The translations under genes and the position numbers were made by a program. The notes under the pieces were generated by a model. The model ran no database searches, had not been told where the DNA came from, and was given only the letters and a program-made list of their open reading frames with translations. Shown here one piece after another: positions 26,636 through 39,737 of a DNA stretch of 42,494 bases. Source of the stretch: a virus; the IMG/VR virus record IMGVR_UViG_3300029624_000217, positions 1 to 42,494 of that record, one strand, 5' to 3'. Every line of letters starts with the position of its first letter. Position 1 is the stretch's first letter.

Positions 26636-27064
26636 ATGTTGACCATGATTTATAAATACACCATCGAAGGGGAAAGCGGCGATTATATCGTTCGGTTTCC
26701 TGATATCCCGGAGGCCCTTACTGGAGGCTCCACCAAAGAGGAGTGTCATGAGCTGGCGCGTGATTGCCTTATCGGGTCTCTTGACGGTTATATCACCATG
26801 AATAAGCCGATCCCCACGCCTACCAATAAAGGGAAGCATAAAGTTGCCCTGCGCCCTATCGAGGCCGCTAAGGTTTGCTTGTGGAACGCCATGCGCGAAA
26901 AAGGCATGAGCCGCGTTGCTCTCGCCAACATGATCGACGTTGACAACAAGATCGTGCAACGCTGGCTTGATCTGGACCACGCTTCTAAAATTGAAGACAT
27001 TCACAAGACCCTGCGCCTTGTGTTTGGTCTTCGGCTGGTGACAAGTGTGGAGAAATCGGCTTAA
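26636..27064 (+). CDS. hicB: HicB-like antitoxin with C-terminal HTH
   Basis: The 142-residue antitoxin begins directly after the hicA stop. Residues 1-60 form the HicB domain (YKYTIEGESGDYIVRFPDIP, EALTGGSTKEECHELARDCL), which occupies the HicA active site. Residues about 80-135 are an XRE-like HTH (AAKVCLWNAMREKGMSRVAL, ANMIDVDNKIVQRWLDL) that should bind the two operator dyads upstream. The last codons overlap the convergent methyltransferase stop by 4 bp. Confidence 0.9.
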   Translation: MLTMIYKYTIEGESGDYIVRFPDIPEALTGGSTKEECHELARDCLIGSLDGYITMNKPIPTPTNKGKHKVALRPIEAAKVCLWNAMREKGMSRVALANMIDVDNKIVQRWLDLDHASKIEDIHKTLRLVFGLRLVTSVEKSA

Positions 27065-27909
27065 CATGTGCCCCCCTGCTCCGTCATCACATCCTGAAAG
27101 GCCCCTATGAACTCCGCTGCGACTTGCGGTACGATTGCATCGCCTGCCGCATGGATGAGACCCACGCGCTCGGTATCCCCATGAGCCAGCAAGGGAATTC
27201 CGGGTTCAATGAGCCTTTCTTTTCCGTCTGCGCAGAGGGACCATTCTGCCAGACCTGTCTGCCAAGAAGGCCGTTGATCGGCACATTGTTGCATTGTGGC
27301 CCGTCTTTGTGGTCCCGCACTGTCGGCGTTGCCCAGAGCACCATTGTCTGCAAATCCGCACGGTTTCCTGTCCGGCTTGGACCTGACCCTCGTGAAGTCT
27401 GAGCTCTCACTGTGGGCCACAAACCACAATCTTTCCCGTCTGTGGGCCGCGCCGACACTGCAAGCTGGCAATACAGCCGACCCGCAGGCGTAGCCTTCCG
27501 CTTCCAGCCCTTCATAAACATCGTCAAGCCACCCTTTGGCAATCGCGCTTGCAACCTGCTCTCCAAAGACTGTTGCAGGGCCGCACTCGCGGATGAGGCG
27601 CTCCCATTCGGGCCATAAATGCCGATCATCTGCCTGAGCTTTTTGTCGACCTGCTGAACTAAATGGCTGGCATGGGCACGATCCCGTCCAAACGGGTGTA
27701 TCTTGCTTCCATCCTGCGAGGTCAAGTGCATAGTCCCACAATCCGACCCCGGCGAAGAAATGGGCCCGCTCGTATCCCTTGACGTCTGCCGGCTGAACAT
27801 CTCTAATTGATCTGTCATCAATATCACCCTTTCTGATATGACCGTCCCTCATGAGCTGCGAAAGCATGGCGCATTTTTTGGGGTCGATTTCGTTGTAGTA
27901 GACCTTCAC
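27061..27909 (-). CDS. DNA (cytosine-5) methyltransferase
   Basis: The start is GTG 27909, with GGAGG 7 nt upstream and overlap with the HNH stop. The 282-residue enzyme shows C5-methylase motifs: AHFFAGVGLWDYALDLAGW (motif I), TGSCPCQPFSSAG with catalytic Cys in the PCQ (motif IV), VFGEQVAS (motif VI variant of ENV), GAAHRRERLWFVA (motif VIII) and the C-terminal GDAIVPQVAAEFIGAF (motif X). The target-recognition region is short. No cognate nuclease is next to it, so it is probably a solitary phage methylase protecting phage DNA or tuning expression. Confidence 0.9.
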   Translation of the reverse strand: MKVYYNEIDPKKCAMLSQLMRDGHIRKGDIDDRSIRDVQPADVKGYERAHFFAGVGLWDYALDLAGWKQDTPVWTGSCPCQPFSSAGRQKAQADDRHLWPEWERLIRECGPATVFGEQVASAIAKGWLDDVYEGLEAEGYACGSAVLPACSVGAAHRRERLWFVAHSESSDFTRVRSKPDRKPCGFADNGALGNADSAGPQRRATMQQCADQRPSWQTGLAEWSLCADGKERLIEPGIPLLAHGDTERVGLIHAAGDAIVPQVAAEFIGAFQDVMTEQGGTC

Positions 27910-28223
27910 GCCATCACCTCCGAGTAGCACTCATAGGCTCTCCTCTTTTGATTTTCCGTATGCGTGACGATCTCTAGGTTTTCACGTCTATTGTCTAGCG
28001 TTTGCCCATTAACATGATCGACTTGCAAGGACTGAGGAGCATTACAAAGAAATCTGTGCAGGTAGACTTTTTTGCCATCAATGTTTGCCCTCGCATAAGG
28101 ACGCCCCCTTTTTCTGCCAAAGCCACCAGAGAAGTGAACATGCCAGCTATATTGACTGCAAAGCTTCCAATCCTCTGTGGAAATAACTGCAACATATCCC
28201 TTGGTTAAATTCAGAACTCTCAC
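27906..28223 (-). CDS. HNH endonuclease (homing-type)
   Basis: The 105-residue protein begins with a GTG that overlaps the upstream stop. It has a beta N-terminal part (KGYVAVISTEDWKLCSQYSW) and a basic stretch (GRKRGRPYARA). The HNH core is VYLHRFLCN, SLQVDHVNGQTLDNRRENLE and IVTHTENQ: His-Arg, Asp-His and Asn...Asn-Leu residues in the expected order. Such stand-alone HNH proteins are mobile in phage genomes and often lie within gene clusters without function for the host. It is squeezed between methylase and hypothetical gene with 4-bp overlaps, so it is well integrated. Confidence 0.85.
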   Translation of the reverse strand: MRVLNLTKGYVAVISTEDWKLCSQYSWHVHFSGGFGRKRGRPYARANIDGKKVYLHRFLCNAPQSLQVDHVNGQTLDNRRENLEIVTHTENQKRRAYECYSEVMA

Positions 28224-31744: not shown

Positions 31745-32131
31745 ATGGCCAATAATGTACGAAAATTAAGACTAGCCAAGGGCTGGAATCTTGAGGCGTT
31801 CGCCGAAAAGGTAAACCATGTCCTTGATGGCAACCCACATCTAAGAAAAATCACAAAAAAGAACCCTTATGGTGTTGTCGACTATCAAACCCTCCAAAGA
31901 CTAGAAACCGGAGAAATCAGCCTTAACGACCGATGGGTCAATATACTGAAAATCGTCTTTGAGTGCAGTGCCTCCGACCTTTCCTCCACCTATGAAGGCG
32001 AAGACACCAACCTCCTAAAAAAAGATATGCAGCTATTCATCAAAGAAATAGAGGCGGGCGATCAGGTTTTAAAAGGGATGTTTGATAACATGAAAACCTA
32101 TCTTCAGAGCCGTAAGGGAGGGAAAAAATGA
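31745..32131 (+). CDS. CI-like prophage repressor (XRE HTH, no peptidase domain)
   Basis: The 128-residue protein starts MANNVRKLRLAKGWNLEAFA, a typical XRE HTH first half (helix then -LEAFA--V-), followed by a longer loop, DYQTLQRLETGEISLNDRWV as recognition part and a C-terminal helical domain (LLKKDMQLFIKEIEAGDQVL). No LexA-type Ser-Lys peptidase domain is present, so it is unlikely to be cleaved by RecA. It faces cro across three operators and is coupled (ATGA) to a membrane-protein gene. It is the best candidate for the main repressor. Confidence 0.78.
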   Translation: MANNVRKLRLAKGWNLEAFAEKVNHVLDGNPHLRKITKKNPYGVVDYQTLQRLETGEISLNDRWVNILKIVFECSASDLSSTYEGEDTNLLKKDMQLFIKEIEAGDQVLKGMFDNMKTYLQSRKGGKK

Positions 32132-33141: not shown

Positions 33142-33268
33142 ATGATCCCCCAATTGGATTTATTTACACTCTTTATTCAACTAGCGCATCATTATGTTTT
33201 AATTTTGTACGCTTTTTGTTGATTTTTGGCACCTTATGAAAAGCTCGCAAATAAAGTCAAGAAAATTT

Positions 33269-33296
33269 TTGCTTTTTTGGCATAAAAAGTTATACT
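33269..33296 (+). promoter_or_regulatory. Promoter for the XRE-EgtD-like operon
   Basis: TTGCTT (33269-33274), 16-bp spacer and TATACT (33291-33296) in an AT-rich stretch precede the XRE gene by about 55 bp. A separate promoter fits an independently expressed lysogenic (moron) unit. The segment 33142-33350 otherwise holds no gene that I can see. Confidence 0.55.
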
Positions 33297-33350: not shown

Positions 33351-34010
33351 ATGATCTTATCCATCGACCAAATTAAAGCCGCAAAGGCCATGCTGGACTG
33401 GAGCAATGTAGAGCTTGGTAAGCAGGCCGGTGTTAGTACTGCCACCGTTAACAATATCCTTAATCAGAAAAGCCCCGGCAACCAAGGAACGCTACGCAAA
33501 ATCCGTAGTGCCTTCGAAAACAACGGCATTGAATTTCAGGGGATGGACAGCGTAAAGCGCAACCATAGCTCAGCTCTGCAGCAGCTAAGCGGCTATGAAG
33601 GCTTTCGCACTCTTCATTTCCAGATTCTGAATTTTCTTGAAAAAGGCGGCGAGAACGTTTACATATTTAACGTCGACGAGCCGCAGTGGGATCGCTGGGC
33701 AACCCCGCACCGCGAGGAATATTTTGAACGTATCGGGCAAATCGATCACCCGTTTGAATTCAAAATCCTCATCGCGGAATCGGACACCAATCTGATCGCC
33801 AGCAGCTATGCCGACTACAAATGGATGCCAAAAGAAGCGTTCGGAACAAGCCCGTTTTGTGTGTTCGGGGATAAGATAGCCATGCTCTCGCTGGAGGGCG
33901 CCTGTAATATAGTCATCGCCGAAAACGAACAAATGGCGGACTCTATGCGCAGGCTGTTTACATTTATATGGAGCTTATCAAGAACGCCCGATGCACACAC
34001 AGACCCGTAA
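33351..34010 (+). CDS. XRE-family regulator with C-terminal sensor-like domain
   Basis: The 219-residue protein has an HTH in residues 1-65 (DQIKAAKAMLDWSNVELGKQ, AGVSTATVNNILNQ, TLRKIRSAFENNGIEF), a pattern common in proteobacterial XRE regulators. Residues 80-219 form a second domain (LHFQILNFLEKGGENVYIFN, YEWMP-like DYKWMPKEAFGTSPFCVFGD, KIAMLSLEGACNIVIAENEQ). It resembles the PLD-like C-terminal domain of TrmB-type regulators, with the phrase P-x-x-x-FGDKIA. It overlaps the methyltransferase gene by 20 bp and probably controls it in response to a ligand. Not the phage repressor by position. Confidence 0.75.
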   Translation: MILSIDQIKAAKAMLDWSNVELGKQAGVSTATVNNILNQKSPGNQGTLRKIRSAFENNGIEFQGMDSVKRNHSSALQQLSGYEGFRTLHFQILNFLEKGGENVYIFNVDEPQWDRWATPHREEYFERIGQIDHPFEFKILIAESDTNLIASSYADYKWMPKEAFGTSPFCVFGDKIAMLSLEGACNIVIAENEQMADSMRRLFTFIWSLSRTPDAHTDP

Positions 34011-34977
34011 AAATTTTAAGGCCGATATTCTGGCGTTATTTCGTGGTGAACGCGGCGGCCACGTCGAAAAATACCTGTACACCCACACACCCTACGAACA
34101 GGACGGGATGTCGGGGGCTGGGCTGATCAATAGCTTCAACCGCTCCTCACCGTTCTACTATATAGGCCCCGATACGGAACGTATGATCCCCGATGTCGCA
34201 AGCGCCATAGCGCCCCTCACTGAGGATTTTGAACAAGTGGCGGATTTCGGCTGCGGCGGCGAAGCCTCTATCCTGACCAAAACCCTGCCCCTGATCGCGG
34301 GGTGTCCGAACGCAAAACTTTATACCGCCATCGATTTTAGCCGTGGAAATCTGGCCGCCGCGCGCACGACCCTGCAAAGCCGCAGGCCGGATCTGGAGGT
34401 AAAAACCATCAAGGCCGATTTCTTTCAAGACACACTCAATATACCGCGCGATGCCCTGCTCGCCCTGCTTTTGGGCTCGACCATCACCAATCTGGAAATG
34501 CGCGAAACAGACCCATTGCCCAAAGAGCAGGCCGTAAAGGCCCTGCGCCACATCAAAGACCAGCTCCCGCCCGGGAGTCTCCTGCTCGCCGACTACGACA
34601 GCAATCAGGACCCCGATTCGCTCCTGCGCGGCTACGACAATCTATACAGCAATCGTTTTGTTTCGAATCTCGCCTACCTGATCGACCGGGAGTTAGGGCC
34701 AAAGGGGAATTTCCATCCGGCGCTTTGGGCGACTCATCGTGTTTGGAACAGCCGAGAAGGCGTGATGCACCACTGTATATCTGCTCTCGAAGATCAGGAC
34801 TTTTCTATTGATGAAGAACGATTTCAGCCCCGCGCCGGCACCCGCTTTGTCGCTATCAACTCTGTTAAATTCAAGGAAGAAACCTTTGCTTCCATCACCA
34901 GATGCGCCAGTTACGACAGCCTGCCCCCGATCCACAGCGATGCGGGGCGCATCGTATTCCAGCCTTTGCTTACTTGA
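33991..34977 (+). CDS. EgtD-like (histidine-specific family) SAM methyltransferase
   Basis: The 328-residue protein has a Rossmann methylase core: EQVADFGCGGEASILTKTLP with motif I at 83-90, KLYTAIDFSRGNLAAARTTL with Asp115, KTIKADFFQD with Asp143, and ALLLGSTITNLEMRETDP. The phrase LGSTITNLE is a hallmark of the EgtD family (LGSTIGN-). PFYYIGPDTERMI stands where EgtD has its YY-substrate-binding region. Size equals EgtD (about 320). Known members trimethylate histidine for ergothioneine; no other ergothioneine genes are here, so the substrate is open. It is cotranscribed with an XRE regulator within the immunity region. Confidence 0.75.
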   Translation: MHTQTRKNFKADILALFRGERGGHVEKYLYTHTPYEQDGMSGAGLINSFNRSSPFYYIGPDTERMIPDVASAIAPLTEDFEQVADFGCGGEASILTKTLPLIAGCPNAKLYTAIDFSRGNLAAARTTLQSRRPDLEVKTIKADFFQDTLNIPRDALLALLLGSTITNLEMRETDPLPKEQAVKALRHIKDQLPPGSLLLADYDSNQDPDSLLRGYDNLYSNRFVSNLAYLIDRELGPKGNFHPALWATHRVWNSREGVMHHCISALEDQDFSIDEERFQPRAGTRFVAINSVKFKEETFASITRCASYDSLPPIHSDAGRIVFQPLLT

Positions 34978-35266
34978 GCTTCCCACCATCGAATAGATGC
35001 CATTGCGGCTGCCGTCATTGCGTGTGTTGCAATTATGCAACATGTCGTTTTAATTTCAGCTTCAGTGTTATTTACCGGGGGGCGGGAATCGGTTAAGAAT
35101 ACCGATAACAAGAACCTTAAAGTTGCATACATGATTATATTTTGCTGAGCTCTGTGCTACAATTTATTTGACCGCAAGATGATTTATGGTTATTACTGCG
35201 TCCTTCAACAAGATATTTCGTACCCGGTTAAGAGGGATTTAACTGTTTTATACGAAAATAGAGGCT
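34978..35266. other. Intergenic region with dyads and a candidate promoter
   Basis: No gene is supported here. Visible are a dyad GTTGCA-ATTA-TGCAAC (35026-35041), a hairpin ATCGGT/ACCGAT with a 7-nt loop (about 35088-35106) and an extended -10 (TGCTACAAT, ending 35163) that could serve the downstream two-gene unit with a leader of about 95 nt. A longer minus-strand frame across the EgtD-like 3' end looks like a shadow. Confidence 0.4.
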
Positions 35267-39248: not shown

Positions 39249-39737
39249 ATGAGCGGATCAGTAAATAAGGTAATTTTAGTAGGCAATTTGGGCAATGACC
39301 CGGATGTAAGAACCATGCAGTCGGGCGACAAGGTGGTCAATTTATCTATCGCCACAAGTGAGAGCTGGAAGGATAAACAGACGGGCGAGCGTAAAGAGCG
39401 CGTTGAGTGGAACCGCGTTGTGGTTTTCAACAAAGGTCTGGTCTCTGTCTGCGAAAACTACCTCTCTAAAGGATCGAAGGTTTATATCGAGGGCCAGCTC
39501 GAAACCCGCAAATGGACCGATCAAAGCGGTGTTGAAAAATACACTACCGAGATTGTCTTGCGTCCATTTAGGGGCGAACTGGTCATGCTGGACTCGCGTA
39601 GCTCAACGGTAGAGCAAGGTGCTCATAACGCCTCGGGTGCAGGTTCGAATCCTGCCGCGAGTACCATGGATGCCGCAGGTGGAGACTTCGAGGACGATAT
39701 CCCATTTATGCGTTTTAACGATTTTATAGGAGCTTAA
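39249..39737 (+). CDS. ssb: Single-stranded DNA-binding protein with a tRNA gene inside its linker
   Basis: The 162-residue protein has a standard SSB OB-fold in residues 1-112 (VNKVILVGNLGNDPDVRTMQ, RKERVEWNRVVVFNKGLVSV, SKGSKVYIEGQLETRKWTDQ, YTTEIVLRPFRGELVMLD). The following 25 codons are encoded by a complete tRNA gene (39592-39666). After it comes DAAGGDFEDDIPFMRFNDFI: the acidic DDIPF tip that normally ends SSBs, here followed by nine extra residues. SSB coats ssDNA and recruits replication partners through the tip; the linker tolerates almost any sequence. RNase P cutting at the tRNA would destroy this mRNA. Confidence 0.93.
   Translation: MSGSVNKVILVGNLGNDPDVRTMQSGDKVVNLSIATSESWKDKQTGERKERVEWNRVVVFNKGLVSVCENYLSKGSKVYIEGQLETRKWTDQSGVEKYTTEIVLRPFRGELVMLDSRSSTVEQGAHNASGAGSNPAASTMDAAGGDFEDDIPFMRFNDFIGA
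39592..39666 (+). tRNA. tRNA with CAU anticodon (Met, or Ile2 if lysidine-modified)
   Basis: A full cloverleaf is present. The acceptor is ACTCGCG (39592-39598) with CGCGAGT (39656-39662), all 7 pairs perfect. The D arm is GCTC/GAGC with a 7-nt loop containing GG. The anticodon stem is AGGTG/CGCCT with loop CTCATAA (CAU at 39624-39626), and the variable loop has 5 nt. The T arm is GCAGG/CCTGC with TTCGAAT. Discriminator A and an encoded CCA end it. The acceptor pairs fully (A1:T72), so it is not an initiator; elongator Met or Ile2 cannot be told apart here. It lies in frame in ssb. Confidence 0.93.

Follow-up and report, generated by a model that had tools for sequence, protein, structure and literature searches.

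A regulator–methyltransferase gene pair in a phage genome and its chromosomal relatives in two orders of small-genome Alphaproteobacteria

The locus and its setting in the phage genome

The window analyzed here (42,494 bp) comprises a complete IMG/VR virus record. It codes for portal, capsid, lysozyme, ERF and SSB proteins and, at the right end, for a tyrosine integrase, and on this basis the virus is likely a temperate tailed phage. The gene pair under study, P0001 and P0002, and the features around it are as follows.

31745–32131, same strand as P0001: weakly XRE-like ORF upstream of P0001
32128–33015, same strand as P0001: ORF with an N-terminal hydrophobic segment upstream of P0001, PHROG 29597 (unknown function)
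33223–33231 and 33274–33282, + strand: two copies of the direct repeat TTTTTGGCA, putative operator sites
33269–33296, + strand: candidate promoter TTGCTT-16-TATACT before P0001, read by eye, weak (8/12 matches) and below the scan threshold
33351–34010, + strand: P0001, ORF of 219 aa, a one-component regulator with an XRE-type HTH (residues ~5–56) and a putative sensor domain (~66–219)
33991–34010, + strand: overlap of the P0001 and P0002 reading frames, 20 bp, with the same tight spacing in relatives
33991–34977, + strand: P0002, ORF of 328 aa, an EgtD-fold SAM-dependent methyltransferase with a changed side-chain pocket
35022–35045, + strand: terminator-like hairpin 45 bp 3′ of P0002, 10 pairs of which 3 are G-C, with a T-rich tail

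The sequence-only reading of this DNA had described a regulator and a 328-residue methyltransferase overlapping by 20 bp, and both reading frames are exactly as it gave them; the overlap is likely to couple their translation. The two genes and the two ORFs that precede them run opposite to the leftward structural genes, and this orientation, together with the XRE-like and hydrophobic neighbors, makes a position in the immunity region plausible, if unproven.

The signals that might control the pair are weaker. The same reading had given it a promoter of its own, which is not established, as the P0001–P0002 region holds five promoter-like sites against 5.6 expected by chance, and no clear signal was obtained from the promoter and operator scans around the two genes. 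An AT-rich gap of 335 bp lies ahead of P0001, and the hexamer pair read by eye at 33269–33296 is a possible promoter. The repeat TTTTTGGCA occurs four times in the window against 1.06 expected, a count reached by 1 of 100 shuffles; the two copies ahead of P0001 are possible operator sites. Terminator-like sites are no more numerous in the region than expected by chance.

Two further features of the window should be mentioned. A complete tRNA-Met gene (CAT; Rfam 69 bits) lies at 39592–39666 (+) inside the ssb frame (39249–39737, +), so that this tRNA gene also codes for the linker of SSB. A HicB-like antitoxin ORF at 26636–27064 (+) stands among leftward genes and adjoins a C5 DNA methylase (27061–27930, −).

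Properties of the regulator and the methyltransferase

Taken alone, the HTH_3-like N-terminus of P0001 scores 19.8 bits, under the cut-off of 23, and HTH_3 is matched by 25/25 of the family members scanned (E ≤ 1, best E 8e-14). Standalone XRE, HipB and C-protein regulators share this N-terminal HTH with P0001, but they do not have its extra C-terminal domain of ~150 residues; the description of P0001 as a sensor-type regulator overlapping an EgtD-like enzyme is right. The C-terminal domain matched no Pfam family and no sequence in the PDB, and it is homologous at full length to a large family (alignment A2, 25 rows). Folding of P0001 from its single sequence gave a pLDDT of 37. The motif F..YG.K.A...I.I......R..F...W in this part is reminiscent of PLD-like/TrmB sensors and serves as a lead only; such an identity was unsupported by the Pfam and PDB searches. 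Ligand binding by the domain is suggested by its position and by the co-sorting with enzyme classes described below.

A search with the C-terminal domain in 385 Alphaproteobacteria found relatives in 17 genomes, the majority being full-length proteins, and many paralogues occur in some of these genomes. The two bacterial groups compared in this work are two orders of small-genome Alphaproteobacteria, hereafter order 1 and order 2. The regulator family is present in all 33 order 1 genomes examined, in 1 to 40 copies (E ≤ 1e-15), and in 120 of 142 order 2 genomes (E ≤ 1e-20); genomes that carry it are small, 1.1–4.1 Mb and mostly about 2 Mb. At one locus (L285, G432:C2:1000-13000), about nine P0001-type regulators form a tandem array, several of them back to back, in a genome with 40 copies in all (E ≤ 1e-15).

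P0002 matches Pfam PF10017 (Methyltransf_33) with 108 bits, against a gathering cut-off of 23, and falls well under the cut-off of the EgtD equivalog TIGR03438 (92.4 against 290.9 bits). Its structure model, built with 39 EgtD sequences, has a pLDDT of 85.9 and a pTM of 0.84. In the Foldseek comparison with solved structures, full-length matches were EgtD entries only (TM 0.77–0.86), with the M252V/E282A variant of EgtD with bound tryptophan and SAH at the top; the non-EgtD structures among the matches listed reached TM 0.38–0.48. Of the BFVD viral proteins listed, none shared the complete fold, the highest TM being about 0.45. Since the model leans on EgtD rows, its likeness to EgtD is partly by construction; the PF10017 match, made from sequence, does not depend on the model.

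In EgtD, Asn166, Tyr56, Tyr206 and Ser284 grip the amine and carboxylate of histidine, and the histidine site includes Thr213, acting through water, and Glu282 (PMC8593015). P0002 retains the amine/carboxylate residues (N167, Y215 and S291, with Tyr56/57), and its side-chain pocket is changed from Glu282 to Ile289, from Thr213 to Ser220 and from Met252 to His261. The suggestion of an altered Tyr-rich substrate region was therefore right for the pocket, which differs at Glu282, Thr213 and Met252, and wrong for the tyrosines, which are kept. The 48 module relatives repeat this pattern: the equivalents of N166, Y206, S284 and K286 are kept in 46, 46, 40 and 44 of them, and almost all retain the SAM glycines, while E282 is found in 0/48, T213 in 2/48 and M252 in 2/48 (mostly His). 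In ordinary EgtD, Glu282 is present in 39/39 sequences and the other pocket residues vary little or not at all. Pocket residues also vary between module copies, with an entropy of ~3.3 bits at the E282 and T213 positions. A conserved amino-acid grip combined with a varied side-chain pocket points to a family of alpha-amino-acid methyltransferases whose side-chain specificity has been changed and diversified.

Beyond the shared full-length fold, SAM motif and amine/carboxylate grip, P0002 differs from EgtD (TIGR03438; PDB 4PIM/4PIP/7SCF) in its ~20–30% identity, in the E282-to-Ile, T213-to-Ser and M252-to-His replacements and in an insertion near the N-terminus. The tryptophan-bound M252V/E282A variant (PDB 4PIP) is changed at two of these same pocket positions, by engineering in that case, whereas His261 and Ile289 are the natural residues of P0002. 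EgtD is partnered by EgtB, and P0002 by a regulator; in agreement with the earlier remark that no ergothioneine genes lie nearby, the window contains no gene for an EgtB-like protein. A plasmid search and a search with the EgtD alignment returned only ordinary EgtD for P0002, at 25–32% identity. Relatives in order 2 reach 34% identity (E down to 4e-42), and because P0002 shares 31–33% identity with its nearest relatives, its substrate may differ from theirs.

The pair in bacterial chromosomes and its transfer to the phage

Pairs of the P0001–P0002 type are a chromosomal module of both Alphaproteobacterial orders. In order 1, there are 21 relatives of P0002, and 20/20 of those with upstream sequence follow a regulator on the same strand, at a spacing of −49 to +18 bp (median 3); at L231, in the same order, only 60 C-terminal residues of the regulator lie on the contig. 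In order 2, a P0001-type regulator stands directly upstream on the same strand in 30/30 loci inspected. Hence the possibility raised from sequence, that the two genes are not conserved as a pair, is contradicted by 50/50 relatives with upstream DNA. In the control set of ordinary egtD loci, a P0001-type regulator was found in 0/80 and EgtB in 76/80, and the wide module loci gave 8/8 and 0/8, respectively. A closely spaced gene on the same strand follows 26/53 regulators and precedes 6/53.

Some loci depart from the simple pair. At L366 (G550:C6), three PF10017 methyltransferase genes in a row come after a single regulator, which suggests duplication or multi-step methylation. Four order 1 loci (L267, L271, L273 and L274) carry PF10017 genes that are matched by the Pfam profile and not by P0002, without an adjacent regulator, and these may represent another PF10017 subfamily.

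The phage copy has a narrower distribution. Single-protein scans of the IMG/VR, phage and genome collections revealed nothing close to P0001 or P0002, and neither gene was found in the other viral sequences searched with short patterns, near-identical records being possibly absent from the collections; patterns from the narrower alignments A5 and A6 gave no viral relative, the broader A2 and A3 being too divergent for such scans. Sibling or distant viral copies of the pair may therefore exist. A full-length regulator was absent from 50 terminase-related virus records, and we rejected the idea of a general prophage module on this ground. The earlier proposal of a prophage module does not agree with these data either, since no other searched virus has the pair and its relatives are chromosomal. 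GC content is 0.552 at 34–35 kb against 0.45 and 0.43 in the flanking kilobases, and this GC-rich segment, taken together with the lack of the pair in other searched viruses, indicates that the phage apparently captured the module from a bacterium.

The terminase of the window is 61% identical to a fragment from order 2, compared with 57% in IMG/VR and 54% in phages. As the nearest relatives of P0002 also belong to order 2, the source of the module was probably a host in or near that order, an assignment that is weak because no other gene on the order 2 contig matches the window.

Methyltransferases are one of several enzyme types that follow P0001-type regulators. All 17 cyclodipeptide synthases (CDPS) of order 2 (L400–L416), counted enzyme-first, lie directly after such a regulator, where the 17/17 includes one case of long overlap caused by start-codon choice (automatic count 16/17); their products there may accordingly be regulatory ligands. 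The commonest non-methyltransferase partners are LPG_synthase_C-like proteins, whose reading frame overlaps or almost overlaps that of the regulator before it at L277, L278, L292, L300, L348 and other loci. CDPS and LPG-like families use amino acids or aminoacyl-tRNA. Further partners are GNATs, class-I methyltransferases, aminotransferases and 2-hydroxyacid dehydrogenases, and those of metabolic type also include an aldo-keto reductase and a formyltransferase.

Separate trees of the sensor part and the HTH part were built for 171 regulators, of which 51 were labeled as methyltransferase-linked, 14 as LPG-like and 8 as CDPS. The sensor tree requires two partner changes, the minimum for three classes; random 61-column subsamples of it gave two changes in 12/12 cases, and contiguous 61-column windows gave two in 6/7 and three in one. 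The HTH tree, with 61 columns, requires 12–13 changes, and shuffled labels require at least 17. The comparison indicates that the C-terminal domain tracks the enzyme class and that the DNA-binding domain has been exchanged. When many other partners are counted, methyltransferase-linked sensors become interspersed in the sensor tree (13 changes), so that sensor and enzyme are matched by broad class. P0001 itself falls into a clade with 30/32 methyltransferase-linked members (SH-aLRT 96). Within methyltransferase pairs, the correlation of sensor and enzyme distances is weak (rho 0.20, Mantel P 0.008), and that of HTH and enzyme distances is rho 0.04 (P 0.30). Co-sorting of this kind would also be expected if the regulators sense the substrate or are merely co-inherited with the enzyme.

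Proposed function and comparison with known systems

Taken together, the regulator-first layout with one enzyme, the many paralogues, the partners that use amino acids and the sorting of sensors with enzymes resemble synthase–receptor signaling. The reading that we favor, with confidence that goes about halfway, is that P0001–P0002 is a captured bacterial sensor–synthase module whose enzyme product, or its precursor, is sensed by the regulator. P0002 would use SAM to methylate the alpha-amino group of a non-histidine amino acid, or of an amino-acid-like compound. The product or its precursor would be bound by the C-terminal domain of P0001 and would set the DNA-binding activity of the HTH; P0001 would then control the operon it belongs to and probably further genes of phage or host. 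The data show the pair and its strict conservation in the two orders, the EgtD fold, the kept grip with the lost histidine pocket, and the sorting of sensors by partner enzyme; the methylation of a non-histidine amino acid, the ligand sensing, the cell–cell signaling and the role in lysogeny are steps that we infer. The earlier suggestion that the enzyme modifies an amino acid or produces a signaling compound agrees with this reading.

The main rival, which fits most of the same facts and which we regard as possible though on the unlikely side, is a local metabolic feedback operon, in which P0001 responds to the substrate of the enzyme (an amino acid or stress metabolite) and controls a detoxifying or osmolyte-making (betaine-type) methyltransferase with no cell–cell signal. 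A two-gene operon holding one enzyme agrees with it, betaines are products of EgtD-type chemistry, and many partner types are plain metabolic enzymes (aldo-keto reductase, 2-hydroxyacid dehydrogenase, formyltransferase). However, as many as 40 paralogues in a 2-Mb genome, the tandem regulator arrays and partners such as the CDPS (17/17) look less like housekeeping, and the pocket variation between copies (~3.3 bits at both positions) fits many distinct products.

An antimicrobial (small bioactive-compound) module, in which the enzyme would produce or modify a weapon and the regulator would turn production on, seems improbable to us. CDPS and GNATs are frequent in natural-product pathways, and both partner types, as well as the diverse and patchy gene units, speak for such a module, but no transporter, immunity or additional tailoring gene was evident in the P0002-type units seen (windows of ~3–4 kb).

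A phage defence or toxin–antitoxin pair of XRE regulator and enzyme is very improbable. The HTH does resemble R-M controller proteins and HipB, and the position is an accessory one close to the repressor region, but PADLOC gave just an HTH "Control_protein" match of 23 bits and a generic Rossmann mad2 match of 20 bits, the fold is that of an amino-acid methyltransferase, and the family occurs in every order 1 genome examined, with metabolic partners. A DNA or protein methyltransferase for defence was rejected, and nothing was found in favor of the defence role that the sequence-only reading had suggested. A host-derived EgtD with normal histidine activity, which that reading had also allowed for, is hardly credible and was rejected: the fold, SAM site and amine/carboxylate grip are retained, but the score is 92 bits against an equivalog cut-off of 291, the EgtD side-chain pocket is gone (E282 and M252 lost, T213 replaced by Ser), and EgtB is absent nearby.

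No description of a P0001–P0002-type regulator–enzyme pair or family was found in the literature searched. The logic of an enzyme with a matching sensor is already known; the combination of these proteins, this chemistry and carriage by a phage is new. If the sensor–synthase reading is true, a whole class of one-component signaling modules, open to phage capture, has been overlooked in small-genome Alphaproteobacteria, with a range of amino-acid-derived signals and a sensor domain outside Pfam. It would offer ready synthase–receptor pairs, whose ligands could be found by expressing one enzyme, and would add new chemistry to phage–host communication. Even as a metabolic module, the pair redefines a PF10017 subfamily that is currently annotated as histidine methyltransferase.

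Besides EgtD and the XRE-type regulators, the closest known systems include those of the LuxI/LuxR type. Prophage xre-luxR-luxI operons in Alphaproteobacteria control lysis–lysogeny (PMC13345283), and they are a direct precedent for a phage with a regulator–enzyme pair. Common to them and to P0001–P0002 are an adjacent regulator and small-molecule enzyme, a sensor matched to the enzyme class, many copies, and carriage by a temperate phage near regulatory genes. The difference is that P0001, P0002 and their relatives have no homology to LuxI or LuxR in Pfam scans, and that the ligand link is an inferred one here. By extension, an undescribed synthase–receptor superfamily may be envisaged, in which an HTH with a sensor domain is combined with EgtD-like, cyclodipeptide-synthase, LPG-synthase-like and other enzymes. 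Through an N-methylated amino-acid signal, the phage would gauge how dense lysogens or relatives of the host are and steer lysis or lysogeny accordingly, by analogy with arbitrium and prophage LuxI/LuxR; we consider this extension unlikely at present and put it forward tentatively.
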